NCBI GenBank assembly: GCA_022842625.1
Contig: JALHPG010000001.1
Coordinates: 1 to 64,000 of the forward strand
DNA: 64,000 bases
Origin: Bacteroidia bacterium
Lineage (GTDB): Bacteria > Bacteroidota > Bacteroidia > B-17B0 > Aurantibacillaceae
Direction of reading: 5' to 3'
Below are positions 7,325 to 24,535 of the stretch, in pieces. The translations under genes and the position numbers were made by a program. Below the pieces are notes generated by a model. That model was not told the DNA's origin, made no database searches, and saw only the letters and a program-made list of their open reading frames with translations. The stretch's first letter is position 1. The number at the start of each line of letters is the position of its first letter.

Positions 7325-7325
7325 A

Positions 7326-8080: not shown

Positions 8081-8812
8081 TTAACCAAAATCTTTATAAT
8101 GATTCCAGGCAGTGGCACTAAGATTTTTGCCTAAGGTAAAGGTTATGTATGCAGTTACTCCCATATGAAAGATCAATAAATGCATAAAAGCAGCCGCTCT
8201 GTATCCACTCCAATAAGTTGCCTCCGAATCCAAGGTTATTAAGGGTGTTGGAATAACAAGCGTTACAATTAAAGTATATAACAAAACAGTTATAAATAAA
8301 TTTTCAAAATTCTTTAACGGCAAGGAAACTATTTTTCTGTGCCATTTAAATGAGCTTCCCCAGTTGTGAACAAGGTAATAATTACCATAATTTGTTGGGG
8401 CAAATAAAATTGAACCTTTGGTTAATTTCTCGTCCTTAAACGCACTTATAGGTGCAAGGATCTTAAATCCCTTAATGTTTTTATGATAATTTGTATTGAG
8501 GTGTTTAATTTTTAAAATGGCCTCATAAGGAATATCTGCTTTAAAAAACTGACTATCAATAAATTTTAATCGGTAATCAATGGCAATTTTTTTTATTTCC
8601 GAAATATTAAAAATATGTTCGCTTGGCACATCCTCTTCATCAATCAGTTCAAATAAATTATTATACTGCTTTAAATTATTTAAAATTTTCTTTTCAGAAA
8701 AAAGATCTTGTGCAAGAATACGCTTTGCCTCGTCGAAAAGATCATCCTCTTTACTTCTGCTTGTATTTTTAAGCTTTCGTAATTTATTATTTATATCTAT
8801 ATCCCTAAGCAT
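8081..8812 (-). CDS. Conserved hypothetical membrane protein, 243 aa
   Basis: The N-terminal ~165 residues are soluble and charged (DLFDEAKRILAQDLFSEKK, then FKILAPISAF and NYGNYYLVHNWGSSFKWHRK). Two membrane helices follow (about 170-192 and 208-228), so the soluble part is tethered by a C-terminal hairpin. I recall similar proteins in flavobacterial genomes but know no function. It is the second gene after the outer-membrane-type gene at 8820, with a 7-nt gap, and shares that gene's TAAATTTG promoter box. The overlapping plus ORF 8580-9101 is a shadow. Confidence 0.7.
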   Translation of the reverse strand: MLRDIDINNKLRKLKNTSRSKEDDLFDEAKRILAQDLFSEKKILNNLKQYNNLFELIDEEDVPSEHIFNISEIKKIAIDYRLKFIDSQFFKADIPYEAILKIKHLNTNYHKNIKGFKILAPISAFKDEKLTKGSILFAPTNYGNYYLVHNWGSSFKWHRKIVSLPLKNFENLFITVLLYTLIVTLVIPTPLITLDSEATYWSGYRAAAFMHLLIFHMGVTAYITFTLGKNLSATAWNHYKDFG

Positions 8813-8819
8813 CTATCAA

Positions 8820-9536
8820 TTAATAAGGTATTATAGCTATTCCAAAAGAAAGCATGTTTATGCCATTTATGCCTTTATCTTTTTGAAACACCTCACTAAT
8901 GTAATAACAAGCAGTAAAGCATATTTGTTCAACACCAATTCTAAAATTTACACCATATCTAAAATGATTTATGTTTTTTGTATTATAAACCCTCATTTTA
9001 CCATCATCATCAACCAATTTTCTAAAATCATTGATCACATACCCGGCCTTTACACCCAATTCCATTTTAAATTTTGTATCGGTTTTGCTTCTAAATCTTA
9101 ATTCTAAAGGAATTTCCAAGATCTTCTCATTATAACTATTTGTTTTGTAAGGAATTGTTTTTGGCTGAAGAACGGTAGTTACGCTTTTATTGGTACTATC
9201 TAACTTATAAATAAAATCAGCATTACTGTGATAATTAAAACTAAAAATTCCAATTCCATACCCAAAACTAAAGTTTGATTGACCAATAGGCTTATCAAAC
9301 ATAAAAGCAAAATTTAAACCAAGGCTTCTCCAATGTGGTTTTATCTCTGAAGGTGCTCCCATCCATACCGTTCGGTTAATTTCAATGATCAAACGATCTC
9401 CCGGCTCTCCTTTATATTTTTTAATATCAAACTCATCGTCAGGTTTTGGTTTGTTTGAAGTTTCCTTTTTTGGGGTTTGGGAGAAACAAAAAATGGAAAT
9501 AACTAGAAATGAAAATAAGTATAAAAATTTATTCAT
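8820..9536 (-). CDS. Secreted outer-membrane beta-barrel-like protein
   Basis: A 238-residue protein with a signal peptide (MNKFLYLFSFLVISIFCFSQ, cleavage after FSQ) and a mature domain of amphipathic strands with aromatic girdles (LGLNFAFMFDKP, NFSFGYGIGIFSFNYH, FRYGVNFRIGVEQICF) ending in a hydrophobic strand LSFGIAIIPY. This fits the PorT-like/outer membrane beta-barrel class common in Bacteroidota. The function is not assignable. It is first in a two-gene unit with the membrane protein at 8081. Confidence 0.7.
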   Translation of the reverse strand: MNKFLYLFSFLVISIFCFSQTPKKETSNKPKPDDEFDIKKYKGEPGDRLIIEINRTVWMGAPSEIKPHWRSLGLNFAFMFDKPIGQSNFSFGYGIGIFSFNYHSNADFIYKLDSTNKSVTTVLQPKTIPYKTNSYNEKILEIPLELRFRSKTDTKFKMELGVKAGYVINDFRKLVDDDGKMRVYNTKNINHFRYGVNFRIGVEQICFTACYYISEVFQKDKGINGINMLSFGIAIIPY

Positions 9537-9557
9537 TTAATAACACGGTTTAATAAA

Positions 9558-9565
9558 CAAATTTA
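9558..9565 (-). promoter_or_regulatory. Putative -7 promoter element (TAAATTTG)
   Basis: The minus-strand sequence TAAATTTG, an exact match to TAnnTTTG, lies 21 nt upstream of the ATG of the 8820-9536 gene. It probably drives 8820 and 8081 together. Confidence 0.5.
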
Positions 9566-9746
9566 AGTATAATAGGCTAACAAGCAAACAATACAAAGCT
9601 AGTAGAAAATTGAACCTTCTTAAGGCAATAAAATGATCCAATTATTAAAAAACTCAGGATTTTACTTGGGGTAAAAGAGTAAAGCTTAGGTAATTTTGAC
9701 TATATTTATTTTTTAAACATTATTATTTAATTTTTGTTATTTATAC

Positions 9747-10583
9747 ATGAAAAAACCCATCTTAGCTTTTTTATTAGTTGTTATACTATTATTTAGCACT
9801 ACTGCGTTTGTAGTAAAATCAAAATATTCAACGGGAATCGCCGGATTTACAGGCTCTCCTTCTGAAGGAACTTGTAGTTCTTGTCATGGTGGCGGATCAA
9901 GTATCGCTTCCGGCATAACAATAACTTCTCTTCCTGCATTTACCGGTAACCAATATATAGCCGGAACGACATACACAATTACTTTAAATATTTCAGCCTC
10001 CGGCTTTAATAGTTTTGGTTTTGGTTCAGAAATATTGAATAGCACAAATACTAATGCCGGATTAATGCAAAATCCAGGGCCGGGAGTGAAATTTTTAAAT
10101 TCAGGTGCCAGAAAAAATGCCGTGCATACAACGCCAAAAACCGGTACCGGGGCAGCTTCGTTTAGTTTTGAATGGGTTGCTCCTACAAGCGGAGGTGTAA
10201 CAATTTATGTTGGCGCCAATGCCGTAAATGGCACAGGCGGTACGGGCGGCGATTTTACATTTAATTCTTCGTTATCATTAACCGAATCGTTAGGTGTTGG
10301 CATAAAAGAAAATAATTTGCAATCTGTTTCAAATGTTTTAATATTTCCAAATCCTGTAACAGAATTTACAACGCTATCTTACGTCTTAAACAAAACACAA
10401 AACATACATGTTCAATTAACCGACCTTAGCGGTAAAATCGTTAAAGAAATTTATACAGAAACCCAAAACGCAGGCTACCAATCTAAAATGATCGATCTTA
10501 CTAATGTATCCTCGGGAGTATATTTTATTATAACAAACGCCGATAACCAAAAAGTATCTCAAAAATTAATTACTGTAAATTAA
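9747..10583 (+). CDS. T9SS cargo with choice-of-anchor V/Reeler-like domain and CXXCH motif
   Basis: A 278-residue secreted protein with a signal segment at 1-22 and GTCSSCHGGGS at 42-51 (C43-x2-C46-H47, a possible c-type heme site). A beta-sandwich region follows (about 55-185; TYTITLNISASG, GVTIYVGANAVNG), resembling the choice-of-anchor V family. The C-terminal ~80 residues are a type A T9SS sorting domain (FPNPVTEFTTLSY, LTDLSGKIVKEI, SSGVYFII, KLITVN). It is predicted to be exported through Sec and T9SS to the cell surface or outside. Whether heme is attached is not shown; a single CXXCH can be fortuitous or metal-binding. It is a single plus-strand gene between minus-strand units. Confidence 0.8.
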   Translation: MKKPILAFLLVVILLFSTTAFVVKSKYSTGIAGFTGSPSEGTCSSCHGGGSSIASGITITSLPAFTGNQYIAGTTYTITLNISASGFNSFGFGSEILNSTNTNAGLMQNPGPGVKFLNSGARKNAVHTTPKTGTGAASFSFEWVAPTSGGVTIYVGANAVNGTGGTGGDFTFNSSLSLTESLGVGIKENNLQSVSNVLIFPNPVTEFTTLSYVLNKTQNIHVQLTDLSGKIVKEIYTETQNAGYQSKMIDLTNVSSGVYFIITNADNQKVSQKLITVN

Positions 10584-10604
10584 TAAGGTATTAAATTTTA
10601 AAAA

Positions 10605-11969
10605 TTAGCTTACCATCATTAAGCATTGGGCCAAAATAGATTTTGCTTTATACTTAATTTTAGCTGGTACACTTTTGGTTTTACTATAATTAACCTCATT
10701 ATACACCCATCGTATTGCATATTGGTAAAATGCTTTTGAGTGTTTACGGGTAAAATTATTTTCTCTATCTGTAATTTTATTCCAATCGCCGTCGGTCACA
10801 ATGGTTGTGTTTACCTCATTGTATAATGGTGTGCCTTTAATTGGATAAGCTAAAGTAACCGTGTAATAGCTGGGGTCAGAGATCTTTAAATGACGGATGG
10901 TTTCTTTAATATCAGCTTTATTTTCTCCAGGATATCCTAACATAATAAAAGTACCTGCCTCAATACCATATTCTTTTGTTTTAATGATCATTTCTCTAAC
11001 CTCCTTCACATCTACCCTTCTATCCATGGCGTCAATTATTTTTTGCGAGCCACTTTCTGCTCCTATCCAAACCCTAAAACAACCTGTATCTTTTAAAATT
11101 TTAATGATGTTTTCATTTAGTCTATCGGCTCGCGTGATTATTTCATAAGGAATAAATACTTGTCGCTTTAAAACCTCATCCTTAAATTCATTCATCCATT
11201 TATGGCTTATTGTAAACACATCATCTACAAACCAAACGCGATCGGGATTATAATTTTGTTTTAAAAACTCCAATTCATCCACTACTAATTTTGCACTTCT
11301 TCTTCTGTAAGTTCCACCATAAACTGCTCTGCTGCACCATTTACAGGTATAAGGACAACCTCGCATAGTGCTTAAAGAATACATGCTGTAACCATGGTGT
11401 TTTTTCCATGCATTGCCATATAATGTAAGATCAATTTTTTGGCGGGCAGGCATTGGCAGTTCATTAATATCTTTGATGAGCGTTCTTTCCGGAGTAAAAA
11501 AAACAGTGCTATCTTTTAAATAAGCTGTTCCGGCAATTTCTGTTGGAAGTGATCTGTTATTTAAATAATACTCTGCAATTTCAAAAAAAGTTTGCTCTCC
11601 TTCGCCCACCACCAAAATATCAGCACCATTCAAAAGATAATTTTCTGCATTATATCTTATTTCCGGACCACCTAAAATAATTTTACATTCCTTAAGGTCG
11701 GGTTGTGAGTGAACAAATTCAATAATTTTTAAAACATTAACCTTGGTCATTAAATTAGTATAAATACCAATTAAACCCGGTTTCTTTTTGATCAAATTGT
11801 TCTTAAAATTTTCGAATGTAGAAAAGGTTGAATCAAAAACCTCATGAGCAATTTTTTTACTTTCAAGGTAAGCTGAAATATATAGAATGCCCAATGGAAC
11901 ATAAGGTTTCATGATCTCTAGTTCTTTTGGGTCTTCGCTTAAAAAATATCCGTGCGTTAAAAGTATCAA
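10605..11969 (-). CDS. B12-binding-domain radical SAM protein (third in cluster)
   Basis: A radical SAM enzyme with an N-terminal cobalamin-binding-like Rossmann domain (VPLGILYISAYLESK, IILGGPE, ADILVVGEGEQTFFEI), the cluster motif CPYTCKWC and a TIM-barrel body (VWFVDDVFTISHKW, FRVWIGAESGSQKIIDAMDR). The ORF track begins at 12020, giving 17 odd residues inside the upstream methyltransferase. I prefer TTG at 11967-11969, overlapping the methyltransferase TGA as TTGA. It yields a start (M)ILLTHGYFLSEDPKEL that aligns with the sibling enzyme MKVLFTHSYFLNFDPKQL. In this numbering the cluster cysteines are C205, C209 and C212. The family does methylations, ring formations and rearrangements; the substrate is unknown. 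It is the last gene of the operon. Confidence 0.88.
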   Translation of the reverse strand: MILLTHGYFLSEDPKELEIMKPYVPLGILYISAYLESKKIAHEVFDSTFSTFENFKNNLIKKKPGLIGIYTNLMTKVNVLKIIEFVHSQPDLKECKIILGGPEIRYNAENYLLNGADILVVGEGEQTFFEIAEYYLNNRSLPTEIAGTAYLKDSTVFFTPERTLIKDINELPMPARQKIDLTLYGNAWKKHHGYSMYSLSTMRGCPYTCKWCSRAVYGGTYRRRSAKLVVDELEFLKQNYNPDRVWFVDDVFTISHKWMNEFKDEVLKRQVFIPYEIITRADRLNENIIKILKDTGCFRVWIGAESGSQKIIDAMDRRVDVKEVREMIIKTKEYGIEAGTFIMLGYPGENKADIKETIRHLKISDPSYYTVTLAYPIKGTPLYNEVNTTIVTDGDWNKITDRENNFTRKHSKAFYQYAIRWVYNEVNYSKTKSVPAKIKYKAKSILAQCLMMVS

Positions 11970-12757
11970 TTTATTTTTTTTAGATGAATGATAAAATGAT
12001 CGGCGTAATTTGCCGTCCAACTAAATTTACAAAATAGTTTATCTAAACCATTTAATAATTTTAAAAGAAATTTTTTGTTTGAAAAAAAAGGGTTTAAATA
12101 TGACGGTGGCACAAAAAGACCAACCCCTGATGTATGTACCATTTTAAATTCGGTGCCGAAAAAATTCGCTATTTCTTTAGGAGAGTAGTACCAGGTTTTA
12201 AATTCAGAGCCATTGATCAAGGTCTCCACCCCTATTGTACTATCTCTTCTATTAGCTTTTTTTTGGTCGCCTTTAAACTTAAAATACAGTCTCTCCCAAA
12301 TACATTTACGACCCATGATCACAAAAAAAAGATCGGCTTGTGTGTTTAATAATGCTTTGCATTTATCTGCAAACTCTGCAAATTCTTGTGGCGAAAGACA
12401 GTTGAGCCCGCCAAAATTTGAAAAAATAAAATTTGAATTTTTTATCTCTTCGTTTAGATCTTGAATAAGATTGACTTTAAAAGAAACATTTGCAGCGCTA
12501 TTATTTTTAGCCTTACAAAGTTCTATCATTTTTGTTGAAGCATCTGTAGCTAATACACTTAGTGTATACTTTCCAATTTCTAAGGCATCCTTTCCGGTAC
12601 CACAATTAATTTCAAGAACTCTGCTTTTATTATTTAACAAGGGCATTAGTAGGCTATATACAGCATGCCTCTGCATTAAACCCACCAGAGAGAAGGTAAA
12701 ATGATCGTCGTAATTCTTTGCGTAATTATCAAAAGAGGCTACTTGCATCCGGTTCAA
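11966..12757 (-). CDS. Class I SAM-dependent methyltransferase
   Basis: A 263-residue Rossmann methyltransferase. Motif I is SRVLEINCGTGKDALEIGKY, motif II is VLATDASTKMIELCK and the motif IV region is NFIFSNFGGLNCL. This is a small-molecule or lipid-type fold without an NPPY motif, so the acceptor is more likely O or C than a planar amide. The start overlaps the end of the upstream radical SAM gene by 29 nt (ATG 12757) or by 20 nt if the second Met is used. The stop overlaps the next radical SAM start by 4 nt. The tight packing between two radical SAM genes suggests it acts on the same molecule. Confidence 0.88.
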   Translation of the reverse strand: MNRMQVASFDNYAKNYDDHFTFSLVGLMQRHAVYSLLMPLLNNKSRVLEINCGTGKDALEIGKYTLSVLATDASTKMIELCKAKNNSAANVSFKVNLIQDLNEEIKNSNFIFSNFGGLNCLSPQEFAEFADKCKALLNTQADLFFVIMGRKCIWERLYFKFKGDQKKANRRDSTIGVETLINGSEFKTWYYSPKEIANFFGTEFKMVHTSGVGLFVPPSYLNPFFSNKKFLLKLLNGLDKLFCKFSWTANYADHFIIHLKKIN

Positions 12758-14177
12758 TTGCTTGTAATTTTTTCTTTAGGTTAAGTTGTTTAAAGTAATA
12801 ATACGACCCTAACAACATGCGCTTATTAACTTGTTTATTTTTCAATAATTCTTGCGCTTGAGTTGTTCTAAATTTATAATGGACAAAACGCTGAAGATAC
12901 CGGTAAAAATCTGCTTTATAAGAACTATTAAACATTAAGTGAAGATCATCAGAATCTTTCCAGTTCTGTTTTTCTATGAGGTCCTTTTTTACAGTTTCAT
13001 AAAATTTTGTACCAGGTAAGGGGTAAGAAACAGAAATGCCAATGTCATGTGGTTTCAATTCGCTGACTAATTGCAGAGTTTTTTTTATATCTTCCATCAA
13101 CTCACCGGTGTATCCAAATTGTAAAAAGAAACAAGGTTTTATTGCATGCTTTTTTAAAAGCTGCGTTGCTTCTTTTATTTGCTCAAGTGTTGTGCCTTTA
13201 TCCATGGCATTTAAAACCTTTTGCGATCCGCTTTCTGCCCCCATCCATACTTCTTCGCAGCCGGATTGTGCCAGGTATTTTATATTTTCATCTTCCAGTA
13301 AAAGATCGGCACGACTTTGAATTTTATATTTTACCTTAACATTTAATGCTTGTATTGCTGTATTAAATTCTTTTAACCAGTTTGGCTTAAGTCCAAAAAT
13401 ATCATCTGCAAACCAAATATGGGTAAAACCAAATTTGGTCTGTAATTCTTTTATTTGTTTTGCAATACTTTGAGGCGAGTGTGAATTGTATCTGTTGCCA
13501 TAAATTGGCTTGGCACACCAGTTACATTTATACGGACAACCGCGCGTTGTTACAAAATTTATTGAAAAATAGCCATGCCCGTTTAGCCATGTTTTTTTAT
13601 AGGGCACAATATCCACCAGATCCCAGGCAGGCAATGGTAACTCATCAAGGTCTTTGATAACCATTCGTGGTGGCGTTTTTGTGATCGTATTCTCAGAAAG
13701 AAAAACTAATCCGTTTATTAACGAAACATTAGATAAATTTCCTTTTTTAATAACATTAACTAATTCTAAAAGTGTTTGTTCGGCTTCGCCAATAATAATA
13801 TAATCTGCACCATGTGAAAAATATTTCTCTAAATGATCGGTAGCATCAGATGAGGAAACAATAACCGGAATATTATATTCTTTAGCCACCTTTTGCATAT
13901 CAAACGCTGCCTCACGCATATTAGTGAGACACATTTTTGTTAAGTAATTAAATGAATCGTCGTAGATGACAAATACATCCGGCTTAAAATCATTTATGTG
14001 TTCTCTTATTTCTTCAGCGCTAGATGAAAATTGAAGGTCGGCCAATTTAACATCAAAACCATTTTCTCTTAATAAAGCCGCAGCGTATAAGGTGGCCAAT
14101 GGCGGGAATGGCGTTTTAGTTTTTAATTGTTTAGGATCAAAATTCAGGAAATACGAATGTGTAAAAAGGACTTTCAT
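12729..14177 (-). CDS. B12-binding-domain radical SAM protein (second in cluster)
   Basis: A 482-residue paralogue of the 10605 enzyme. The N-terminal B12-binding-like domain runs about 1-185 (FPPLATLYAAALLRENGFDV, DYIIIGEAEQTLLELV). The radical SAM motif CPYKCNWC follows at C214, C218 and C221, then HIWFADDIFGLKP and EEVWMGAESGSQKVLNAMDK. No DxHxxG cobalamin-His motif is seen, as in many radical SAM B12 proteins. The start abuts the stop of the nucleotidyltransferase-domain gene with 0 nt between. Reaction and substrate are unknown. Confidence 0.9.
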   Translation of the reverse strand: MKVLFTHSYFLNFDPKQLKTKTPFPPLATLYAAALLRENGFDVKLADLQFSSSAEEIREHINDFKPDVFVIYDDSFNYLTKMCLTNMREAAFDMQKVAKEYNIPVIVSSSDATDHLEKYFSHGADYIIIGEAEQTLLELVNVIKKGNLSNVSLINGLVFLSENTITKTPPRMVIKDLDELPLPAWDLVDIVPYKKTWLNGHGYFSINFVTTRGCPYKCNWCAKPIYGNRYNSHSPQSIAKQIKELQTKFGFTHIWFADDIFGLKPNWLKEFNTAIQALNVKVKYKIQSRADLLLEDENIKYLAQSGCEEVWMGAESGSQKVLNAMDKGTTLEQIKEATQLLKKHAIKPCFFLQFGYTGELMEDIKKTLQLVSELKPHDIGISVSYPLPGTKFYETVKKDLIEKQNWKDSDDLHLMFNSSYKADFYRYLQRFVHYKFRTTQAQELLKNKQVNKRMLLGSYYYFKQLNLKKKLQAIEPDASSLF

Positions 14178-15116
14178 TTATTGCGAAAAGGTTTTTACTT
14201 TTTCAAGTCGATTGTTTAATTCTAACAAAACTTTTTGTTGAAAGCCGCGTGGATGATGTTTAGATACATTTTTACGACTACGTAAATTAAGATCAAACTC
14301 TTCTTTACTGAAGCCGGGAAATTTTTTTTCCCAGGACGAAAGTGTTAATTCAAAACATTTTTTTTCTAGGCTTTCTCCCAACTTCCCATTAAGTAACAAT
14401 TCAACCGTTCTGAATAAATACTTTTTTTTGGGTTTTTCATTCAAAAAAGAAGCGTCGTAATTTGATCTGTTTACCAAGAAGTTATTGGTCCAATTATTGG
14501 CATTTAAAAAATTGTCAAATTGCTTTTTATTGCTAACGGGTATTAAGGTTTTAATTTCGGTGGCTACAAAAATATTTTCGTCAGGGATCTGTAGGTTGTT
14601 TGAATCAACTAAATAATTTATACAAAAATATTTTCTTGAATTTAATAAGAATACTTTTTTAAAGGCTATTAAAATAGAACGGCATAGCCATAACTTTTGA
14701 GGTGAGGTAATTATAAAATAATCAACGTCCCCATCCGCATCAAGCAATCCTTTTGAGCAGGATCCTGATATGCAAACAGATTCGACGAAGGGAAAGCGCG
14801 AAATAAAATTGGCGTACCTTTTTATAGTTTTTTGTTTTTCGAGAAACCGTTTTTCAGATCGGATGCGTTTGGTGATATGCTCAGGATTAGCATTTTCTAA
14901 ATAATAAAACCCATTTGATCCTGTAAGTAATTTCAGCTCTACTAATTCGTTTAAGATGATATTAACCTGACTTTGGTCCGTTTTAAAATTTAAAAATTCA
15001 AATACCTGTTCAGGCTTAAGCGGATAGTTAAAAACATCAAAATAGGCAATACAGCTATATACAGCAAATTGTAGTTTTGATAATGCAATATTTGCTTTGT
15101 TTTCTTTAGCTATCAT
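14178..15116 (-). CDS. Nucleotidyltransferase-domain protein with N-terminal winged-helix-like region
   Basis: A 312-residue protein. Residues about 14-80 look like a winged helix (FAVYSCIAYFDVFNYPLKPE, LNELVELKLLTGSNGFYYL). A minimal nucleotidyltransferase signature follows (VCISGSCSKGLLDADGDVDYFIIT: GS, then D-x-D), so a metal-dependent nucleotidyl transfer is chemically possible. The C-terminal ~150 residues are unassigned. The ATG overlaps the preceding methyltransferase stop (ATGA). Its place among radical SAM and methyltransferase genes suggests either activation of a biosynthetic intermediate or a regulatory/antitoxin-like role; neither can be decided from sequence. Confidence 0.75.
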   Translation of the reverse strand: MIAKENKANIALSKLQFAVYSCIAYFDVFNYPLKPEQVFEFLNFKTDQSQVNIILNELVELKLLTGSNGFYYLENANPEHITKRIRSEKRFLEKQKTIKRYANFISRFPFVESVCISGSCSKGLLDADGDVDYFIITSPQKLWLCRSILIAFKKVFLLNSRKYFCINYLVDSNNLQIPDENIFVATEIKTLIPVSNKKQFDNFLNANNWTNNFLVNRSNYDASFLNEKPKKKYLFRTVELLLNGKLGESLEKKCFELTLSSWEKKFPGFSKEEFDLNLRSRKNVSKHHPRGFQQKVLLELNNRLEKVKTFSQ

Positions 15117-15790
15117 GAAGTTCTTACAATATTAAAGATAAAGTTTTTTTCCCACTTTACTTTCTTTGTATAGCATTGGGTTAACAAATAATTATTTTTT
15201 TTTGCGATAGTAGAAATTCTTTCCAAATCGCAATTATCTGCCAGAATGATAAAAATTTGCGAAGTCGGTTTGATATAATCGCCGAGCTGTTTGAATAATT
15301 TTTCGAAATACTCACCGTTTTTTCCACAATACCAGGCATAAGAGCCGGCATCGGAAGGGTCGCTGAAAAAATAGGGCGGATTGATCAATATAATATCAAA
15401 TTTGTTTTCAGGAATAGTATCAAACAGATCGGATAAATAAATATTAAAATTTTCGGTAGACTTAAAATTACTCTTTAAATTTTCTTTTAGCCCGTCTATT
15501 GCTATCGGATTAATATCAAAACTATAAACCACTGCTCCTTTTGAAAAGGCAATAAAACTTAATAGTCCGGAGCCTGCACCAATCTCACATACTTTTTTTC
15601 CGGCTAGATCAAGCTTTTGAATAAAGTCGGCAAAAACCTGCGTACTAAAAAAAAACTTTGGGTGAAAAACGCCGGGATAGATCTTTAATTTAAGTTCCTT
15701 GTAACTATAAATACTTACATTTTTTAAATAACGTTTTAAAATGGGTTGCACCAAAACATCATAAAATTTTTTATGTATAAGATCAAACAT
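15113..15790 (-). CDS. NPPY-type class I methyltransferase
   Basis: A 225-residue methyltransferase with motif I KVCEIGAGSGLLSFIAF, the acidic loop VVYSFDINPIAI and motif IV LINPPYFF. The (N/D)PPY motif marks N-methyltransferases of amides or bases (PrmC, RlmF and adenine-type enzymes), so the target nitrogen may lie in a protein, RNA or small molecule. It is shorter than PrmC and lacks that protein's N-terminal helical domain. The start and the upstream radical SAM stop overlap by 1 nt (TAATG); the stop overlaps the next start by 4 nt. Confidence 0.85.
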   Translation of the reverse strand: MFDLIHKKFYDVLVQPILKRYLKNVSIYSYKELKLKIYPGVFHPKFFFSTQVFADFIQKLDLAGKKVCEIGAGSGLLSFIAFSKGAVVYSFDINPIAIDGLKENLKSNFKSTENFNIYLSDLFDTIPENKFDIILINPPYFFSDPSDAGSYAWYCGKNGEYFEKLFKQLGDYIKPTSQIFIILADNCDLERISTIAKKNNYLLTQCYTKKVKWEKNFIFNIVRTS

Positions 15791-17292
15791 TAAAATCCTT
15801 CGGTTTCAGGCTGACGGTATTTCCATATCTTTTGAAGCGCCTTTATTTCGTATGGAAACTTATAGAAGCCGGTATGATAGCGTAATCCGCTCCAAGTTCT
15901 AATAATAGTCTTTTGCCATTTTTTAAAACGTATATCTGATTCGGTTGGAAAATAACCATTTAAAACCGTTTCAAAATTTTTGATCTTATCGATCATATAT
16001 GGTTTTAACCAAGGTGTTAAAGGATTTTTACGAAGGTCGAAATTTTCCCATGCAGGACTTACCCAATCTTCTAATGTTTCAGGAAACTTAAACCCACTTG
16101 CTAAAACATTATTATACATTTCAGAACCCTCGGTAGGCACAGGACTATACGTGTAAATAATTATTTCGGTATTTGGATTGATTGCTTTTACTTTTTTAAT
16201 AAACTCAATATCTTCATTGATCTGCTTATCAGCTTCAGCTTCTGTATCACTTGGTATTCCTAGTACAAAAGAATATTCCGGAATAATGTCAAACTTCTTT
16301 AAGCGTTCGGCAAATTTTAGGATCTGTTCTCCCGTTTGTGTTCCGCCTTTATCCATCTTTTTTAAAACAGCATCGTTTCCTGTTTCTGCACCAAAAAAGA
16401 TCATCTTACAACCGGCTTCACGAATAAGGGCAAGCGATTCATCCTTGTACTTATCCATGGTATCGATGCGGGCTTCGCCCCACCAAACCATTTTTTCGTC
16501 TTTTATCAATTTAGCAAATTCAACCGTTCGCTTTTCTGAAACAAAAAAATTATTGTCATGAAATTCAATGGCATCACCGTTATATTTTTCTTTCAAAAAT
16601 TTTATGTCGTTATAGATCCCTTGTGCCGACCTACCCTTCCAGCGGGCATTGTAAATTGGCACCACGGCACAAAACGAACAAGTAAAAGGACAACCAAAAC
16701 TACTATGATAAGCAATGGTTTTTTTTCCTAAATACGTTTTACCTAAGTATTTTTGAAGTGGATAAAATTCATTTAATTTTTCGTAGGGCAATTTTGGCAG
16801 CTTATCAAGATCTAACAATTCTTCTTTTGCAGTTTTAATAATTTGCCCTTCTTTAAGATAGATCAGATTTTTTATCCCATCAACAGATAAATTTGCTTCT
16901 ATTGCATTTAATAACTGAGGGAAGGTATTATCACCCGGACCATTAACAATGTAATCGATATAACCAGAACTTAAAACCGACTTGGGTTGATTTGAAGGAA
17001 AATAACCGCCCCAAATAGTTATTACATGTGGATATAATTCTTTAATTTTTTTTGAAATTGGTATTGCCTGTTTTAATTGCGGACCAGGCATCACAGTGCA
17101 ACCAAACACATCTATTTTTTGCTCTTTAAAATAATCCAATATTTTTTTTTGAGGATCGGATTCTAAATTGCCATCTACAAAAAAATATTCATGCCTGCCA
17201 TCAATACTCGCAGCGACCTGCAGAATACTGTTAGGTATTCTAGGTTTAGAATTGGCGCTACGGGGATTAAATAATAGTACTTTTAATGGCAT
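15790..17292 (-). CDS. B12-binding-domain radical SAM protein (first in cluster)
   Basis: A 500-residue enzyme. The N-terminal domain (PLKVLLFNPRSANSKPRIPN, VFGCTVMPGPQLKQAIPIS, VITIWGGYFPSNQP) is the cobalamin-binding-like fold. The motif CPFTCSFC (C201, C205, C208) binds the 4Fe-4S cluster, followed by IEFHDNNFFVSEKR, MIFFGAETGNDAVLKKMDKG and YSFVLGIPSD. The ~100-residue C-terminal extension rich in Trp and Arg differs from the other two enzymes of the cluster, so it likely catalyses a different step. The ATG start lies 47 nt after the FkbM gene, the largest gap inside the operon. Confidence 0.9.
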   Translation of the reverse strand: MPLKVLLFNPRSANSKPRIPNSILQVAASIDGRHEYFFVDGNLESDPQKKILDYFKEQKIDVFGCTVMPGPQLKQAIPISKKIKELYPHVITIWGGYFPSNQPKSVLSSGYIDYIVNGPGDNTFPQLLNAIEANLSVDGIKNLIYLKEGQIIKTAKEELLDLDKLPKLPYEKLNEFYPLQKYLGKTYLGKKTIAYHSSFGCPFTCSFCAVVPIYNARWKGRSAQGIYNDIKFLKEKYNGDAIEFHDNNFFVSEKRTVEFAKLIKDEKMVWWGEARIDTMDKYKDESLALIREAGCKMIFFGAETGNDAVLKKMDKGGTQTGEQILKFAERLKKFDIIPEYSFVLGIPSDTEAEADKQINEDIEFIKKVKAINPNTEIIIYTYSPVPTEGSEMYNNVLASGFKFPETLEDWVSPAWENFDLRKNPLTPWLKPYMIDKIKNFETVLNGYFPTESDIRFKKWQKTIIRTWSGLRYHTGFYKFPYEIKALQKIWKYRQPETEGF

Positions 17293-17339
17293 GAAAAATA
17301 GCTTGTATTACAAATATAAAATAAAAAGCCAATAGACAT

Positions 17340-18233
17340 CTATTTGCGAAAAAGTCTTTTATACAAGTTTATTAAGACAGGAGGAACTACAAATTTTATT
17401 TTTTGTTTTATATCACGAATTTGCGTGCTTTTAAAAAATTGTTTTTGCTCCTCTTCTGAAATAGATATCGCATTAAAAAAATTTGCAGAATTACTCATAA
17501 AGCCCAAGGCGCCAATTACTACACCCATCCTTAAGATCTTTTCTGTTTCATCTGTTCCTTCAGAATTGATGCAATAATAAGCATCGCCGCCAATTCCCCA
17601 TTTTGGCTTTTCTCCGTGCTTCCCTGTAAAATAACTTTGGTCATAATTAAATTCACAGGTGATCAATTTATAACCATGGCTATTTAAAAACTGATCTATC
17701 TGTGTAAATGTAGGCTGGTTTTGGTAAAGGGAAATAAAAGCAAATTCAGTTTTAATGACACCGATCTTTTTTTCTTTTAAACTATTTTCTGCTCCTTTTA
17801 AAATTTCTAACTCTGTGCCTTGCGTATCCAATTTCAAATAATCAATAAAATTAATTCCGCGTTCTCTAACAAAGTCATCAATGGTTATCGTTTCAACCTT
17901 CTTTTCACCTATTATGTTTAATTGTTTGCGCCATTCTTTAAACTCGTTTATGCTATTAAAATATTCGCTCAGTATTTTTTCATCGGGCTTGTAAATGGAG
18001 CTCATACTGGGATTGGCCATCAAATAAAAATTGTAGATCCCTGGTGAGGAATACAGACCCTTTTTTATCACATGAAACTCTGTGTATTCGTTTCCTTTAC
18101 CGTTAATTAACGAATCATTGTCCTGCAAGTTTGGCTCAAAACTATAAAGAGAAATAGATCTTGAAAGTGATCGAAGTTCTTTCAATCCATTTCTGGCACC
18201 AACATCAAAGCATATTAATTTTGGTATTTTCAT
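17340..18233 (-). CDS. FkbM-family methyltransferase
   Basis: A 297-residue protein with the FkbM core: LICFDVGARNGLKELRSL (motif I), YSFEPNLQDN (acidic residue contacting SAM), then FIDYLKLDTQGTELEILKGAENSL and VIKTEFAFISLYQNQPTFTQ, the hallmark end of the domain. FkbM enzymes usually O-methylate sugar or polyketide hydroxyls and are frequent in surface-glycan loci. It sits 3 nt after the flippase-like gene and upstream of the first radical SAM gene, which fits modification of an exported glycan or glycolipid. The acceptor is inferred only. Confidence 0.88.
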   Translation of the reverse strand: MKIPKLICFDVGARNGLKELRSLSRSISLYSFEPNLQDNDSLINGKGNEYTEFHVIKKGLYSSPGIYNFYLMANPSMSSIYKPDEKILSEYFNSINEFKEWRKQLNIIGEKKVETITIDDFVRERGINFIDYLKLDTQGTELEILKGAENSLKEKKIGVIKTEFAFISLYQNQPTFTQIDQFLNSHGYKLITCEFNYDQSYFTGKHGEKPKWGIGGDAYYCINSEGTDETEKILRMGVVIGALGFMSNSANFFNAISISEEEQKQFFKSTQIRDIKQKIKFVVPPVLINLYKRLFRK

Positions 18234-18236
18234 AAT

Positions 18237-19367
18237 CTACTTTTTTAATTTAAAGAATATATATAGACTTAATAAGCCGGCAATGTTGGATAGTATAGCA
18301 CCCGTTATGCCAAAATAATTTATTAAACTAAACGAAAAAACAATATTTATTACAGCGGAAACTAACACCCCGTTCAATAGCAATTTCGACTTGTTTTGAT
18401 CGGTTTTTAAATATATCTCGAAAATGGAAACAGAATAAATAAACAAATTGCAGAAAACTAGCGCCAGCATCGCCATTGAAATATTATATTTATAAATATA
18501 GTGTGTAATGACATAAAATAATGGCAAGGCCAAGATCGACAGGGCAAATGATTTAAGCAAAAACCCTTTGTAATTGTTAGAAAAAGTTTTTCCTCCTGAA
18601 CTAAAAAGATCAACCATTTGATTGGAGAAAAAAGAAGCAATAATGATCTGAGACAAACCGATTAAGCTGCTATAAATATGGTAATTTATTATTTGGCCAG
18701 ATGGCAGGTAAAGAGAGGCGATATAAAAATCTGTTTTCGAAAGCAAAAAAGCAAAAAAAGCGATCAGGAAATAATTATATGTAGTTTTTAAAAAAGGGAA
18801 AGGGTTTATTAGTTTAAACGAAATAACCTCCCGAAACAAAATAATTCCTGCAAAAAATTTACTCAATTCTGCAATGATCATAAGCATAATTACCGTATTT
18901 AGGTTAAACCCGGAGTGAAGGCTATAATAGATAACGATAAAAATTAAAAAAAACAGATCCACTCCGGCAAAAAGACTGTTCTTGCTTTTTGCTGTAGAAA
19001 AGGCTTCAATGGTGTTATTTAAAGATTTTAAAAATGAAAAAACCAGGATGAATAAAATTATGGTTAAGTCGAGTGGAATAAAACAAATAAAAACCCCAAT
19101 TAAAATAAATAAAGTCAACCGAATGGAGAATAATTGAGAAAATATATTTTCTGTACCGCTCTCTGAAACAAATAATTTAACACTATAGTCTTTTAATCCC
19201 CAATTTACAAAACTTAACAGGAGGTTAACGCCTGTAAAAAAAATTATAAAATCTTTAAGGTCAGATGGAAGGTGGAGCGCTGTAAATCCAAAACAAACAA
19301 ACGCGTTTATCAAAGAAGAAGATACCCCTCTAATGGTATTAGAAAAAACGATTACTTTATTTGACAT
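18237..19367 (-). CDS. Polytopic membrane protein, polysaccharide-flippase-like
   Basis: About 376 residues, almost entirely hydrophobic, with roughly ten to twelve predicted membrane helices and short loops. Helix composition and the pattern of repeated ~30-residue spans resemble Wzx/MATE-type lipid-linked oligosaccharide flippases, though the protein is slightly short for the family. The ORF track starts at TTG 19379; I prefer ATG 19367 (MSNKVIVFSNTIRG). It lies between the CXXCH lipoprotein and the FkbM gene with gaps of 16 and 3 nt. The inferred job is translocating a lipid-linked product across the inner membrane. Confidence 0.7.
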   Translation of the reverse strand: MSNKVIVFSNTIRGVSSSLINAFVCFGFTALHLPSDLKDFIIFFTGVNLLLSFVNWGLKDYSVKLFVSESGTENIFSQLFSIRLTLFILIGVFICFIPLDLTIILFILVFSFLKSLNNTIEAFSTAKSKNSLFAGVDLFFLIFIVIYYSLHSGFNLNTVIMLMIIAELSKFFAGIILFREVISFKLINPFPFLKTTYNYFLIAFFAFLLSKTDFYIASLYLPSGQIINYHIYSSLIGLSQIIIASFFSNQMVDLFSSGGKTFSNNYKGFLLKSFALSILALPLFYVITHYIYKYNISMAMLALVFCNLFIYSVSIFEIYLKTDQNKSKLLLNGVLVSAVINIVFSFSLINYFGITGAILSNIAGLLSLYIFFKLKK

Positions 19368-19383
19368 TAAAACATTCAACTGA

Positions 19384-20505
19384 TTATTTTTTCGATCCTT
19401 CCCTTATATCAAACGGCATAACGCTGGGTATAAATGGCGCCAAATTATTGACCGAATCTCTGAAATAGATATCTCCAAAAAAAGTAAATTCCGCATGTTG
19501 GTGAGTTCTTTTGTTTTTAAGTATCTCCTTTAATTTTGGCAATGGAATATTCCACTCTTTAGAGAGTTTAATTAACGAAGGTTCCATATATCCAATATAT
19601 AATCTTTCTACAAAAGAATGATCCTGCGTTTTGGAAAAATCTATTTCGCCCTTTAAATTTTTGCGATAAAGTGAGAGTTTAAACATAAGTTCTTTTACAA
19701 GTTCCTGAAAACTTTCCTGAGAAATAAACCCGCTTATAGAATCGTTAGTTGTATATAACGGTTGAATATACAGCTCGTGACACCATAAACATTTAGCAGG
19801 CTTTCCGGCCTCACTCAGATCTTTTGGACTAGCGCTAATTAGTTTACCGTTTTGATCGTATATAGAAAATCGCAATTGCCCGTTAGCCATAATATCAAAC
19901 ACTTCAAAACCTTTTGCTTTAAATGTTCTATTTAAAAAATTCCCCTCTCCTTCTTCGGCAATAAATAACCAATCCGCAACCTGACCTTTAGTATACAACT
20001 TTAAAACACGGGTATGTTTTGAGATCAATGAATTAGTGACCGGAAAAATAATTGGCTCTTTATCCTTATACATTTTTAATTTTATCGAAAGGTCCGATTC
20101 AGCGTCGGTAATTTTATAATACAATTCGCTTGAGCCTATTAGTAAAGAAACAAATGCTCCAAGATCGATACTGTTTTTAATTGTATATTCTTGAGTATGT
20201 TTTAGTGAATCCATTATTCCTACTAGGGCATTAAGGGCTTTTGGTGAAAATCCAACTTTAGAAAGATCGAGGTTAAATTTTGTAGAATCGCGCCTAAGAA
20301 TAGCATGATCTAAGCTGTCCTTTTTTAATTCTGCGCCTAAAAAAGATAAGGTCCATAACAAACCCGTTCGTGCATTTTCCCAATTATCAATTTCGTATTG
20401 TTTGGTAAATTCAAGGTTTATAGTTTCGTCTACCGGCTTTTCATTTTTGCAGGAAAAAGCAAACAAACCGGTTATTATACCTATATATAGGACTATATCT
20501 TTCAA
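19384..20505 (-). CDS. Lipoprotein with a CXXCH heme-like motif
   Basis: A 373-residue predicted lipoprotein with a lipobox-like LFAFSC (acylated Cys19) and a short charged linker (KNEKPVDE). The mature domain carries one AKCLWCHELY segment (C239-x2-C242-H243), the c-type heme attachment pattern. No other heme or catalytic motif is recognised. The TTG start abuts the GT87-like gene stop (TAATTG), so translation is coupled. In an operon of radical SAM enzymes a periplasmic redox protein would be notable, but its cytoplasmic partners could not meet it directly. A structural or sensory role is equally possible. Confidence 0.65.
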   Translation of the reverse strand: MKDIVLYIGIITGLFAFSCKNEKPVDETINLEFTKQYEIDNWENARTGLLWTLSFLGAELKKDSLDHAILRRDSTKFNLDLSKVGFSPKALNALVGIMDSLKHTQEYTIKNSIDLGAFVSLLIGSSELYYKITDAESDLSIKLKMYKDKEPIIFPVTNSLISKHTRVLKLYTKGQVADWLFIAEEGEGNFLNRTFKAKGFEVFDIMANGQLRFSIYDQNGKLISASPKDLSEAGKPAKCLWCHELYIQPLYTTNDSISGFISQESFQELVKELMFKLSLYRKNLKGEIDFSKTQDHSFVERLYIGYMEPSLIKLSKEWNIPLPKLKEILKNKRTHQHAEFTFFGDIYFRDSVNNLAPFIPSVMPFDIREGSKK

Positions 20506-22077
20506 TTACTGTTCGGACTTAAGTGTTTTTAATTTTAAATAATACATGCCTACACCATTGCAGTCATCGGCCATATAAATTAAGGTTTGTTTATTAGCCA
20601 CCACCGATTTATTTACTGGCGAAAATTTGTTGTTGGTCTTTTCTAATTTTGTTGAATCTATTGATCCGGCAACAAAATTATAATACTCGACCGAATCTCT
20701 GTTTCCTAAACAGGTATATAATTTTATTTTATCATTGAGCACATTAAAATCATACAGGATCCCAATCTTTGGTCTAATTTCGATAGAACCATCACTCACA
20801 TATTTTAAAAAAGCTAAGGATGGTAAAGCAAAAATTAATAAAGAGATCATAAAATATTTTAAGTTAAACCCCGGTTTTAACAATACTACCAATATAATAA
20901 ATATTGCCATTAACAGCCAAACTCTAGGATACTGAAGGGCTAAAGGAAACGCTGATAATTTATAAACCGGAATATTACTAATAATAAAAATCAAAATGCT
21001 AATAATAAAGATTGCTTTTGCTGGGAGATCTTTAAAAAGGAAGATAAATGGAAACAGAACAATTAAACCATAAACAGTTGAATATTTATTTAATAGAAAA
21101 AGTACCAGTATGGTTACAAAAAAAGAAATGAACGCATTTTGCCCTGAAACAATTTTTATATAACAACTAAAAACAACCGCATAAAAAAGTAATTGAACAA
21201 TAACTGCAATTATTGGGGCATTTATAATTGGAGATAGATTTAAATACGGATGTTGAACAAAGGCATTAAGCAAAAACGTATAAAAACTTTGATTAAAGAA
21301 ATAAAATGGAGCAGTAATGTCATTAGAAACCAACCGAGGTAAAACTTTTAAGTAATAGTAATTTATGGTTTCAGATCCAATTGTAAAATAACATATCAAG
21401 CCCAGCAGGGCAGAAAAAAGCATGATCCATTGAATGGCTTTCCATCCTTTTTTAACAATCAACATAATGGCAATAAATGCCGGAAAGATCTTTAATGCAA
21501 ATAGCAATGAAATTATCCATCCGATCCTCACATTTTTTTGCTTGTTAAACGCAATATAAAATTCAAACAATAAAGCAGTTACCAATAAGTACGTTTGCCC
21601 ATGATGGAAATTAGAAAAAAGGGGCTGCAAAAATATAAGTGGCAAAAAATAAAACCACACATTAAAAAACTTAAGTTCATTTATTAGTCGGTTTAATGAA
21701 AAGCAAAAAATAAAAAGACCAAAAAGATTAAACACCAATTTAGCAATTGATAGTTTTAAAAACGTAAATGGAAGGTAAAAAAGTAAGGAAAAGGGCGGGA
21801 CCGGCACATAATTCTCAAAAAAAACTCCCGATTCAAAGTGACGGATCTCGGTATTAAAAAAATGAATGTCTTGATAAAACTTTAAAGGATCTATCCCTTG
21901 CAAAAAAAACTTACTGCCATAATAGTAATTACCAAAATCGCCAATTGGATGATTAAACGTTAAAAAAACAAGAACGCAATTTACAAGGAAGAAAAAATAG
22001 ATAAATTTCTTTTGAACCGAATTCTGAAATTTATTTTCAAAAAAAGCATCTAACCTTATTTTTACGGGATTTTTTAT
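20506..22077 (-). CDS. GT87-like (DUF2029) membrane glycosyltransferase; likely non-canonical ATA start
   Basis: A polytopic GT-C-type protein. The ORF track starts at an internal TTG (21903), but the same frame runs open upstream for over 58 codons and encodes a convincing N-terminus: a basic lead, a first membrane helix (KKFIYFFFLVNCVLVFLTF) and HPIGDFGNYYYGSKFFLQG. The Asp in that loop is the expected GT-C catalytic position. No ATG, GTG or TTG lies in this stretch. The best start is ATA at 22075-22077 (giving MKNPVKIRLDAFF), 22 nt after the M1 peptidase stop. GT87 enzymes transfer sugars from polyprenyl-phosphate donors outside the membrane. It is probably the first gene of the ten-gene operon. 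Confidence 0.75.
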   Translation of the reverse strand: MKNPVKIRLDAFFENKFQNSVQKKFIYFFFLVNCVLVFLTFNHPIGDFGNYYYGSKFFLQGIDPLKFYQDIHFFNTEIRHFESGVFFENYVPVPPFSLLFYLPFTFLKLSIAKLVFNLFGLFIFCFSLNRLINELKFFNVWFYFLPLIFLQPLFSNFHHGQTYLLVTALLFEFYIAFNKQKNVRIGWIISLLFALKIFPAFIAIMLIVKKGWKAIQWIMLFSALLGLICYFTIGSETINYYYLKVLPRLVSNDITAPFYFFNQSFYTFLLNAFVQHPYLNLSPIINAPIIAVIVQLLFYAVVFSCYIKIVSGQNAFISFFVTILVLFLLNKYSTVYGLIVLFPFIFLFKDLPAKAIFIISILIFIISNIPVYKLSAFPLALQYPRVWLLMAIFIILVVLLKPGFNLKYFMISLLIFALPSLAFLKYVSDGSIEIRPKIGILYDFNVLNDKIKLYTCLGNRDSVEYYNFVAGSIDSTKLEKTNNKFSPVNKSVVANKQTLIYMADDCNGVGMYYLKLKTLKSEQ

Positions 22078-22099
22078 AGCGACTGGGGTTAATTCTGCT

Positions 22100-24535
22100 T
22101 TATTCGATCAACAATTTTTGGCTGTAAAGCATACTATTATCTTGCTCTATCTTTATAAAATAAGTGCCTTTTGCAAACTCACTTATATCCACAACGGTTA
22201 TTTTAGCGCTAATATCTCCATTCATTATAATTTTTCCTTCAATATCAAAAATAGTATAAGTATGTCTGATTTTTAGATCGCCTTTAAATTCAATGGTGCA
22301 TTTTTGTTTTGCAGGATTTGGGTAAACCTTCACATCAACCTTGTTACTTATATTTTTCACCAAACCAACGGTACTTGTATCGGTTGAATTTCCAAAAGTA
22401 TATTCTCCTAATTTTAAAGTATCTAACTCAATATACCCCTTACGCGTACCTGAAATAATTTTACTCATATACTTAACAGCTTTCCAATCATCTGCAGCAT
22501 TAGCTCTGTAAAACATTCGTATACTATCGCCATTAACAATGGTTAAAAGTGTATCCATGTAAGAATAAGTGCCACCAATTGTTTTATTACCATCATAATA
22601 AAAACCTACTTTCGCTCTAAAACCGGGAGATAAAATTCCCTCGATCTTCCAGAAATGTTGATTTGATAATTTATGATTTGCAGGATTATTTTTAAAACCA
22701 TCGGGCTTTACATAATTGTGAACCACGCGAACTAAACTAGAATCTAATCCTTTATTTTTAATAGACATATACACCTTTCCTAAATTCCAGGTTACATTTG
22801 TAACAGTTTTTAAGGTCTTAATTTCTGTCGAGGTTGCATCGTTGATCTTACTGTCATAATTTAATGCCTGATAAACCGGGATAAAAGGTATGTTAACAGT
22901 AAAAGTTCCAATTGCCCCGCTCATGGTTACTGTTTTAGTAACTGCCGACCAATCATTTTTAAAAAAACTCACTTCTAAGGGTACATTATTATGAAGGATA
23001 GTTGTACCAAACGTTTTTTGTTTTAACGAAATAATTGCATCGTAACTTGTTGGATTTACCTGAACATATTTAATTGAATCAATAGCAAAATGAGACCAAC
23101 CACCGGTAAAAACCCAGTTATTAAAAAAATCATTTAAGTTTTGGCTACTACTTGTTTGAAGCAGATTTTTAAATTCCACGCTATTCATACTTTTAAACGC
23201 TTTTTGTTGCATAACATATTGTGATCCATTAAAAAAAGCAGCATCTCCCATATAACCTCTTAATGTATGTGCCACATCGGCCCCCTTTTTATAAACATGG
23301 TCGCCGTAGGTTAGGCTATGCGGAATGCCGCTTATTGCTCTAAAGCCTCCTTCTTTTTTATGTAAAAATTGTAATAATTTATCGTGTTCGGCTTTTACCG
23401 CGTTTAAATATCTTGCTTTACCATATTTCCATTCTAAAAACATGTACGCGCTAAAAGTAGCCATGCCTTCATTTATCCACATATCTTCTTGTGTTTCGCA
23501 GGTAACCAAATCTCCCCACCAATGATGAGATAATTCATGCGCCATTAATTCTGATTCGTAGGCTATATTTACTAATGCTCTTGGGTAAGATATGTTTGTA
23601 GCGTGCTCCATAGCACCGCTATTAAAAGGAACTAGTGCGTATCCAAAACGATTCCAAACATATGGTCCGAAATAATTTTCAAAACCGTTTATGCAATTTT
23701 TTAAATTCACAAAACCATTTTTCATTGCTGTAGTATCGCTTGCCGCGCCAACTAAAGTAATAGGTTTAATGCCGCTTAATGTGTTAACTGTCCAATTTAC
23801 TTGACGGTATTTTGCAACAGAAACATTGGCCAGATATGTTGGAATTTCATCGTTTAAAACCCATTTTCGTGTGCGTTTATTTAATATAGATACATCAGAA
23901 ATTAATTGCCCGTTACAATATGCTGCACGAAGCGTATCGCAGGTAATATTAAATTCGTATTTACTTCTTTCTACAAAATTATCAAAGCATGGAAACCAAA
24001 CACGGCCATAATTATGTGGTTTGGCTCCAAACCCCACTCCTAAATTATATGCATACTGGTTACCGCCATGGTTGTCAAAATAAAAACCGCCCCAGCCACT
24101 TGGGTCGCCTTGTGGCAGTCCGTGATAATAAACTGTAAAAATGGAAGTATCAACGGTGTTTTTTGGTGCAACAAAATTTACTTTTAAAACAGTATCGTTA
24201 TAGGCGTAAGTTAATAAAGTAGAATTTTCTTTAACCGAATCGATGGTTAATTTTAAAAGATCAAAACGTATAAATGTTTTGTTATTTTGTTTTGGTGCAA
24301 ATCTAATTTGAGTGTTACCAATAATTTGTTTGTTTAGGGTATTACCAATTTCTAAGTTGATGGTGTATTTTAAAATATCAAAGGTATCGCTTCTAAGATT
24401 TTCGGGACTATAGTAAATAGGAACAGACGATTGAAGGTTTTTGTTGTATTGACAACCAACATGTGCGTTTTGTGCCAAAGCATTTAAGCTTAAAAAAGAA
24501 GCTAATAGGCAAACTGCTTTTAAATAAATTCTCAT
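22100..24535 (-). CDS. M1-family zinc aminopeptidase with T9SS sorting domain
   Basis: An 811-residue secreted gluzincin with a signal peptide (cleavage near LNALAQ) and an N-terminal beta domain. The exopeptidase-type motif is GAMEHATNISYP (GxMEx variant), and zinc binding is by HELSHHWWGDLV...WINEGMA (HExxH-x18-E). The C-terminal region ends in a type A T9SS domain (VYPNPAKQKCTIEF, FDIEGKIIMNG, AKGTYFIKI). It probably trims peptides at the cell surface or outside for nutrition. It is co-directional with the radical SAM operon and 22 nt upstream of its first gene, so read-through is possible, though the function looks unrelated. Confidence 0.92.
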   Translation of the reverse strand: MRIYLKAVCLLASFLSLNALAQNAHVGCQYNKNLQSSVPIYYSPENLRSDTFDILKYTINLEIGNTLNKQIIGNTQIRFAPKQNNKTFIRFDLLKLTIDSVKENSTLLTYAYNDTVLKVNFVAPKNTVDTSIFTVYYHGLPQGDPSGWGGFYFDNHGGNQYAYNLGVGFGAKPHNYGRVWFPCFDNFVERSKYEFNITCDTLRAAYCNGQLISDVSILNKRTRKWVLNDEIPTYLANVSVAKYRQVNWTVNTLSGIKPITLVGAASDTTAMKNGFVNLKNCINGFENYFGPYVWNRFGYALVPFNSGAMEHATNISYPRALVNIAYESELMAHELSHHWWGDLVTCETQEDMWINEGMATFSAYMFLEWKYGKARYLNAVKAEHDKLLQFLHKKEGGFRAISGIPHSLTYGDHVYKKGADVAHTLRGYMGDAAFFNGSQYVMQQKAFKSMNSVEFKNLLQTSSSQNLNDFFNNWVFTGGWSHFAIDSIKYVQVNPTSYDAIISLKQKTFGTTILHNNVPLEVSFFKNDWSAVTKTVTMSGAIGTFTVNIPFIPVYQALNYDSKINDATSTEIKTLKTVTNVTWNLGKVYMSIKNKGLDSSLVRVVHNYVKPDGFKNNPANHKLSNQHFWKIEGILSPGFRAKVGFYYDGNKTIGGTYSYMDTLLTIVNGDSIRMFYRANAADDWKAVKYMSKIISGTRKGYIELDTLKLGEYTFGNSTDTSTVGLVKNISNKVDVKVYPNPAKQKCTIEFKGDLKIRHTYTIFDIEGKIIMNGDISAKITVVDISEFAKGTYFIKIEQDNSMLYSQKLLIE

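Follow-up and report, generated by a model that had tools for sequence, protein, structure and literature searches.

What do ten closely packed genes, three of them encoding cobalamin (B12)-dependent radical S-adenosylmethionine (SAM) enzymes, make for the Bacteroidia bacterium that carries them? The genes occupy positions 10605–22077 of a 64,000-nt stretch of contig JALHPG010000001.1 (family Aurantibacillaceae), which was analyzed as a whole and is referred to here as the window; the contig is part of a 4.09-Mb assembly. The block is read here as an accessory tailoring locus for a cell-envelope glycan, an interpretation that is somewhat favored and under which the locus would make and attach one unusual residue. 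That residue is probably C-methylated or radical-rearranged, both the chemistry and the product being proposals; confidence in the glycan link is moderate, and confidence in any specific chemistry is low. Supporting this reading are a closely related genome that retains the flanks of the locus without the ten genes, a decayed relic at the same site in another genome, a core of genes that is kept together across Bacteroidota, genome-wide co-occurrence of core genes, glycan-assembly genes near most copies of the locus, and two accessory gene sets that exclude one another.

Layout of the locus and its empty site

The window contains ten minus-strand open reading frames in the region (Table 1), separated in transcription order by 0 nt (GT87 to CX), 4 nt (CX to Flip), 3 nt (Flip to FkbM), 47 nt (FkbM to R1), -1 nt (R1 to M6), -4 nt (M6 to NT), 0 nt (NT to R2), -29 nt (R2 to M9), and -55 nt (M9 to R3), negative values being overlaps. 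The tight run of ten genes described in the first-pass annotation, which was made from sequence alone, is therefore confirmed, with spacings of -55 to +47 nt. Its domain assignments held for GT87, FkbM, the three B12-radical SAM enzymes, M6, and M9; the nucleotidyltransferase domain of NT scored slightly under its cut-off, and the flippase label given to Flip proved weak. The start codon of GT87 is uncertain because the mechanically assigned TTG at 21903 cuts into a conserved N-terminus, falling inside sequence common to relatives, and no ATG, GTG, or TTG is found in frame upstream of that N-terminus (near 22077); a start codon of another kind or a frameshift may be responsible. Scans for sigma-70 and Bacteroidetes-type promoters gave no useful result.

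Table 1. Genes of the locus, in transcription order, and the block missing from a related genome
Feature	Position in window	Strand	Description
GT87	20506–22077	-	Multi-pass membrane GT-C glycosyltransferase of family 87; 61.5 bits to Pfam GT87 (cut-off 25)
CX	19384–20505	-	Lipoprotein-like, single CXXCH, uncharacterized family
Flip	18237–19379	-	Flippase-like multi-pass membrane protein; 8 hydrophobic segments
FkbM methyltransferase	17340–18233	-	Pfam 84.2 bits (cut-off 22.7); TIGR01444 64.8 bits (cut-off 37.7)
R1	15790–17292	-	B12-binding and Radical_SAM, both above Pfam cut-offs; core
M6	15113–15790	-	Class I methyltransferase, HemK/PrmC-like, NPPY; Pfam MTS 50 bits; core
NT	14178–15116	-	Winged helix and nucleotidyltransferase fold; NTP_transf_2 19.4 bits (cut-off 21); core
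R2	12729–14177	-	B12-binding and Radical_SAM, both above Pfam cut-offs; core, partner of NT
M9	11966–12757	-	Class I methyltransferase, UbiE/BioC-like; Pfam Methyltransf_25 43.7 bits; core
R3	10605–12020	-	B12-binding and Radical_SAM, both above Pfam cut-offs; frequent core member
Block absent at the empty site of genome G034 (L187)	10584–22140		blastn comparison of the window with L187

The GTDB order of the bacterium comprised 87 searched species, all of a single family, and NT was found in 37 and R1 in 34 of these genomes. One genome with neither gene, G034, has AMP-ligase, HldD, PepM1, a cytochrome of the type IX secretion system (T9SS) type, an outer-membrane protein, u5, ferredoxin, glyoxalase, and DnaJ in an order that matches the flanks in the window, and nucleotide homology between the two (blastn) ends at 10584 and restarts at 22140. 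Because G034 retains the flanks and lacks exactly the block between them, the ten genes are a whole unit, inserted or lost together. That the operon is more than a chance adjacency is clear from this precise gap and from the six-gene core that stays together in many relatives; an assembly artefact or an accidental run of genes was rejected on the same grounds. Spread on plasmids was likewise rejected, as NT had no match in PLSDB and R1 only 23–26% matches in other phyla.

The locus appears to have been lost by decay in genome G037, in which a remnant of R3 (116 aa, covering residues 240–355 at 53% identity) lies at the site of the locus, between u5 and PepM1 (L188, 3046–3393). In a tree of R1 built with a quick method, with SH-aLRT values as the only support, the 31 R1 sequences of the family all fall in one cluster, joined by just one other, from a Sphingobacteriaceae-labeled metagenome-assembled genome (MAG). 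This pattern suggests that R1 has mostly been inherited within the family and lost in places. R1 alone has likely been replaced by a distant allele in locus L033: this R1 (8756–10303) is 74% identical to that of the window, the remainder of the operon is 60–85% like the window, and the tree groups it with R1 of L041 and L046. Loci L034 and L035 have R1 sequences 91–92% identical to that of the window, and their other genes are similar to those of L033.

Three further genes near the block were noted. The product of u5 (8081–8812; 243 aa, no Pfam match) belongs to the flank because each of the nine genomes of the same genus that were tested and do not carry the locus has a homologue. The gene at 9747–10583, which often adjoins PepM1 in relatives, encodes a protein that looks secreted, contains a CSSCHGG motif, and has a C-terminus of the T9SS type. 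A SPASM-domain radical SAM protein is encoded near HldD (27479–28507); it was weighed as a possible further member of the locus and rejected, because its identity to the SPASM genes that relatives carry is only ~20–24%.

A recurrent core and its glycan neighborhood

Within the family, the order R1-M6-NT-R2-M9-R3 recurs and the genes upstream of R1 vary, being GT87/CX/Flip/FkbM in some loci and Wzz/Wzx/Wzy/GT4 or GT2/GNAT/polysaccharide deacetylase in others. Across Bacteroidota, the core is R1-M6-NT-R2-M9, with R3 often added. GTDB species genomes yielded 80 listed R1 loci of at least 66% identity, among 564 relatives at E ≤ 1e-3, only the 80 being counted as R1, and near these R1 genes were found M6 (68 loci), R2 (59), M9 (57), NT (54), SPASM24 (38), and R3 (26), with M9 after R2 in most loci. 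Carriers of R1 include Niastella, Longitalea, Terrimonas, Mucilaginibacter, Chitinophaga, Lewinella, Aureispira, and three Ignavibacteriaceae MAGs. When all sources were pooled, 101 distinct R1 loci were obtained, of which 38 contain R3. The neighborhood comparison thus does not uphold the first-pass proposal of ten genes as a fixed unit across Bacteroidota: the recurrent part is limited to R1-M6-NT-R2-M9(-R3), and GT87/CX/Flip/FkbM is one of two accessory sets.

Co-occurrence was assessed in 395 evenly drawn Bacteroidia genomes, with R1 counted at E ≤ 1e-100. R1 was found in 41 of these, NT in 63, R2 in 58, and CX in 18. Scattering of homologues without co-occurrence was not seen, as 40 of the 41 genomes with R1 and 57 of the 58 with R2 also have NT, and CX occurs with R1 in 17 of 18 genomes and with NT and R2 in all 18. 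The same holds by genus (R1-NT 25/26, R2-NT 35/35, CX-R1 11/12, CX-R2 12/12), with hypergeometric p values from 1e-33 to 3e-10 that treat genomes or genera as independent and are therefore indicative only. R1 and NT are at most 5 kb apart in 21 of 40 genomes and on different contigs in 9 of 40, so their co-occurrence is not mere linkage. This nesting suggests a single pathway in which NT-R2 would act first, R1 next, and CX last.

The accessory genes of the 101 R1 loci fall into two sets. GT87, CX, Flip, and FkbM associate together in type A, and an ATP-binding cassette (ABC) transporter, GT1a, GT1b, GT2, SPASM24, MT27, and a flavin-reductase-like gene (a weak assignment, at E 0.0009 and below cut-off) associate together in type B. 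The glycosyltransferases of type B belong to families GT4 and GT2, and SPASM24 is a SPASM radical SAM protein. The two types are mutually exclusive, CX being found with ABC555, GT1a, GT1b, or GT2 in 0 of 25 loci each, and the window is of type A. Neighbors of the core in type B include, by Pfam, WcaJ-like Bac_transf, GT9, and ABC transporter genes. At least one recognized glycan-assembly gene (glycosyltransferase, Wzx/Wzy/Wzz, sugar-transferase, flippase, or ABC) lies near 82 of the 101 R1 loci, in keeping with the first-pass annotation, which connected the operon with lipid-linked glycans. Copies of CX away from R1 mostly adjoin GT87, FkbM, acyltransferase, Wzy, or Wzz genes. An arylsulfotransferase (ASST) gene adjoins R1 in several type A loci (L130, L144, and L179), two of which (L130 and L144) also have a gene for a SoxA/TsdA-like cytochrome c beside it.

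Two kinds of described glycan system resemble the locus in part. Relatives hold Wzz, Wzx, Wzy, GT4/GT2/GT9, and WcaJ-like Bac_transf genes beside the core, as in Wzx/Wzy-type O-antigen and exopolysaccharide loci, which also vary in presence between related species as the core loci do. However, the window operon is not a complete Wzx/Wzy locus, such genes adjoining the core in relatives (e.g. L064–L066); it has no initiating transferase, polymerase, chain-length, or nucleotide-sugar genes, and three B12-radical SAM enzymes stand at its center. Gtr systems consist of the flippase GtrA, the polyprenyl-phosphate sugar synthase GtrB, and the GT-C transferase GtrS, and the flippase-like protein and GT-C enzyme of the window similarly hint at periplasmic decoration from a polyprenyl-linked donor. 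No GtrB-like GT2 was recognized in the window operon with Pfam and NCBIfam, and in its place is a cytosolic core of B12-radical SAM enzymes, methyltransferases, and a nucleotidyltransferase. No description of a matching cluster was found in the open-access literature (subscription papers lay outside this coverage), in line with the first-pass statement that none was known, and the locus is regarded with moderate confidence as a variant of surface-glycan loci.

Several points weigh against the glycan reading. Nineteen of the 101 R1 loci have no recognized glycan gene nearby, although some of these are on short contigs. In genus g18, a bare NT-R2-M9-MT27 operon (L152, 8920–12951; L158, 7533–11582) has no recognized glycan genes around it, its surroundings being housekeeping-like as judged from sequence without a family search; this is the chief sign that the core can function apart from neighboring glycan genes. 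Pfam and NCBIfam recognize no initiating sugar-phosphate transferase, cytosolic glycosyltransferase, or nucleotide-sugar gene in the window operon. The use of a polyprenyl-linked donor by GT87 and the flippase activity of Flip are predicted at the level of their families, and what the substrate is, which reactions take place and in what order, and that the product is a glycan are inferred. The lack of those three kinds of glycan-synthesis gene points to a tailoring cassette rather than a complete glycolipid pathway; of the modified-glycolipid biosynthesis and export first proposed, the glycan link is kept and the complete pathway is not.

The stand-alone g18 operon would also suit a core that makes a diffusible small molecule, such as a natural product or a metallophore-like compound, with polysaccharide regions serving merely as insertion hot spots. 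So would the separation of R1 and NT on different contigs, and B12-radical SAM enzymes are frequent in natural-product clusters. This explanation is considered unlikely, because glycan genes lie near so many of the R1 loci, the accessory genes form two coherent glycan-assembly sets rather than a random collection, CX is tied to the core genome-wide, and no nonribosomal peptide synthetase, polyketide synthase, or RiPP (ribosomally synthesized and post-translationally modified peptide) genes were recognized in the loci.

Core enzymes and a putative pathway

R1, R2, and R3 are paralogues with 24–33% identity to one another, assigned by Pfam domains and motif to the cobalamin-dependent (class B) radical SAM enzymes, and R1 is the most conserved part of the locus (61–93% identity across Bacteroidia). 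CxxxCxxC is present in every full-length R1, R2, and R3, the four exceptions being short fragments at contig ends, and the NPPY/F motif of M6 is retained in 87 of 89 members. Judged by NCBIfam scores, none of the three belongs to a named equivalog: the best score per protein is 127–159 bits, far under the cut-offs of the families concerned (BchE 121–159 versus 481; PhpK 98–152 versus 600; TIGR04295 36–92 versus 400), and membership in BchE, HpnJ, HpnR, PhpK, AprD4, or TIGR04295 was rejected on this ground. Homology to BchE, HpnJ, PhpK, AprD4, and the oligosaccharide-linked TIGR04295 is nevertheless detectable, with a common domain architecture, and AprD4 (6fd2) is the closest solved structure to R1 by sequence. 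Although C- or P-methylation by the core radical SAM enzymes, as first suggested, is possible, it is not to be assumed, because BchE and OxsB are B12-radical SAM enzymes without methylation activity (PMC13331322), and domain architecture does not separate methyltransferases from cyclase or rearrangement types. The more general first-pass expectation of heavily modified chemistry, involving radical and methyl-transfer steps, is supported.

These family scores also bear on whether the target of the core is a lipid (a polyprenyl carrier, a hopanoid-like lipid, or the head group of a membrane lipid) and not a sugar residue. HpnJ, HpnR, and a ladder-lipid family are among the best sub-threshold NCBIfam matches, and GT87 and flippases use lipid-linked substrates; but BchE and PhpK match equally well or better, all scores are far under cut-offs, and no lipid or isoprenoid synthesis gene is recurrent in the locus, which makes lipid modification quite improbable.

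In the NT model (pLDDT 88), a winged helix precedes a nucleotidyltransferase fold. NTP_transf_2 is matched by 16 of 19 NT members, the window protein scoring 19.4 bits against the cut-off of 21 and that of L152 21.7, and the GS..K..DxD motif is found in 117 of 117 copies. With this motif and CxxxCxxC retained, NT and R1, R2, and R3 are probably active. Fold matches of NT in the Protein Data Bank (PDB) cover one domain each, none below E 1e-3, and include winged helix-turn-helix regulators, the MntA-type AMP transferase, and the aminoglycoside adenylyltransferases AadA and AAD(9); PDB sequence searches with NT and with CX returned nothing informative. Its winged helix and the regulators among its top partial fold matches might imply that NT binds DNA and regulates the locus instead of serving in biosynthesis. 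This is very doubtful given the invariant catalytic motif, the nucleotidyltransferases among the other matches, and the position of NT adjoining R2, the two lying no more than 5 kb apart in 36 of 40 genomes. Locus L038 (genome G031) holds two diverged NT copies in opposite orientation (7001–7930 and 16043–16975), 54 and 34% identical to window NT.

Among the type A proteins, GT87 passes its family threshold and FkbM passes both Pfam and TIGR01444. CX carries its motif as an invariant C239-x-W-C-H, and CXXCH is retained in all copies except one that is truncated. It matches no informative Pfam or NCBIfam family and no cytochrome c family, and the best PDB fold match of its model (pLDDT 86, pTM 0.86) reaches only E 0.037 and probability 0.21; by these comparisons, CX is a conserved family with no Pfam, NCBIfam, or PDB-fold relative. 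The window Flip protein has no flippase-family Pfam match; its putative label comes from transmembrane helices and from Polysacc_synt, which 3 of 17 relatives match weakly (best E 0.0015).

Under the tailoring-locus reading, NT-R2-M9, extended by R3 and R1-M6, would build or remodel one unusual residue in the cytoplasm. From the known roles of the families (nucleotide transfer for NT, methylation or rearrangement for B12-radical SAM enzymes, and a polyprenyl-phosphate donor for GT87), NT would probably nucleotidylate a small hydroxylated precursor, unactivated carbons would be C-methylated or undergo some other radical rearrangement through the B12-radical SAM enzymes, and methylation of N or O positions would fall to FkbM and the class I methyltransferases. 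In type A loci, Flip may then carry the lipid-linked form across the inner membrane, GT87 may transfer a sugar in the periplasm from a polyprenyl-phosphate donor, and the CX lipoprotein may act in a late periplasmic step, possibly heme-dependent; in type B loci, the ABC transporter and cytosolic glycosyltransferases would handle assembly and export around the same core. By analogy, a nucleotide tag followed by radical methylation has a precedent in fosfomycin biosynthesis, in which Fom3 methylates cytidylylated 2-hydroxyethylphosphonate (2-HEP) (PMC8158854). In the Fom1/Fom3 system the tag precedes B12-radical SAM methylation, and here NT is encoded beside R2; the likeness is one of logic only, and no phosphonate gene was recognized at the locus. 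More speculatively, the locus could hold an undescribed glycan-modification pathway in which NT tags the precursor, two or three B12-radical SAM enzymes successively C-methylate or rearrange it, a heme lipoprotein of new fold finishes the group in the periplasm, and two interchangeable machineries assemble and export the product, although this complete scheme seems improbable.

About one-tenth of the sampled Bacteroidia genomes carry R1 and one-seventh carry the NT-R2 pair, and none of the three radical SAM enzymes is in a named family. CX, as a family with no solved relative, is a target in its own right. Carriers include the cultivable Niastella, Mucilaginibacter, and Longitalea, in which the glycan reading is testable. 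If that reading is true, B12-dependent radical chemistry would be a widespread means of surface diversification in environmental Bacteroidota.

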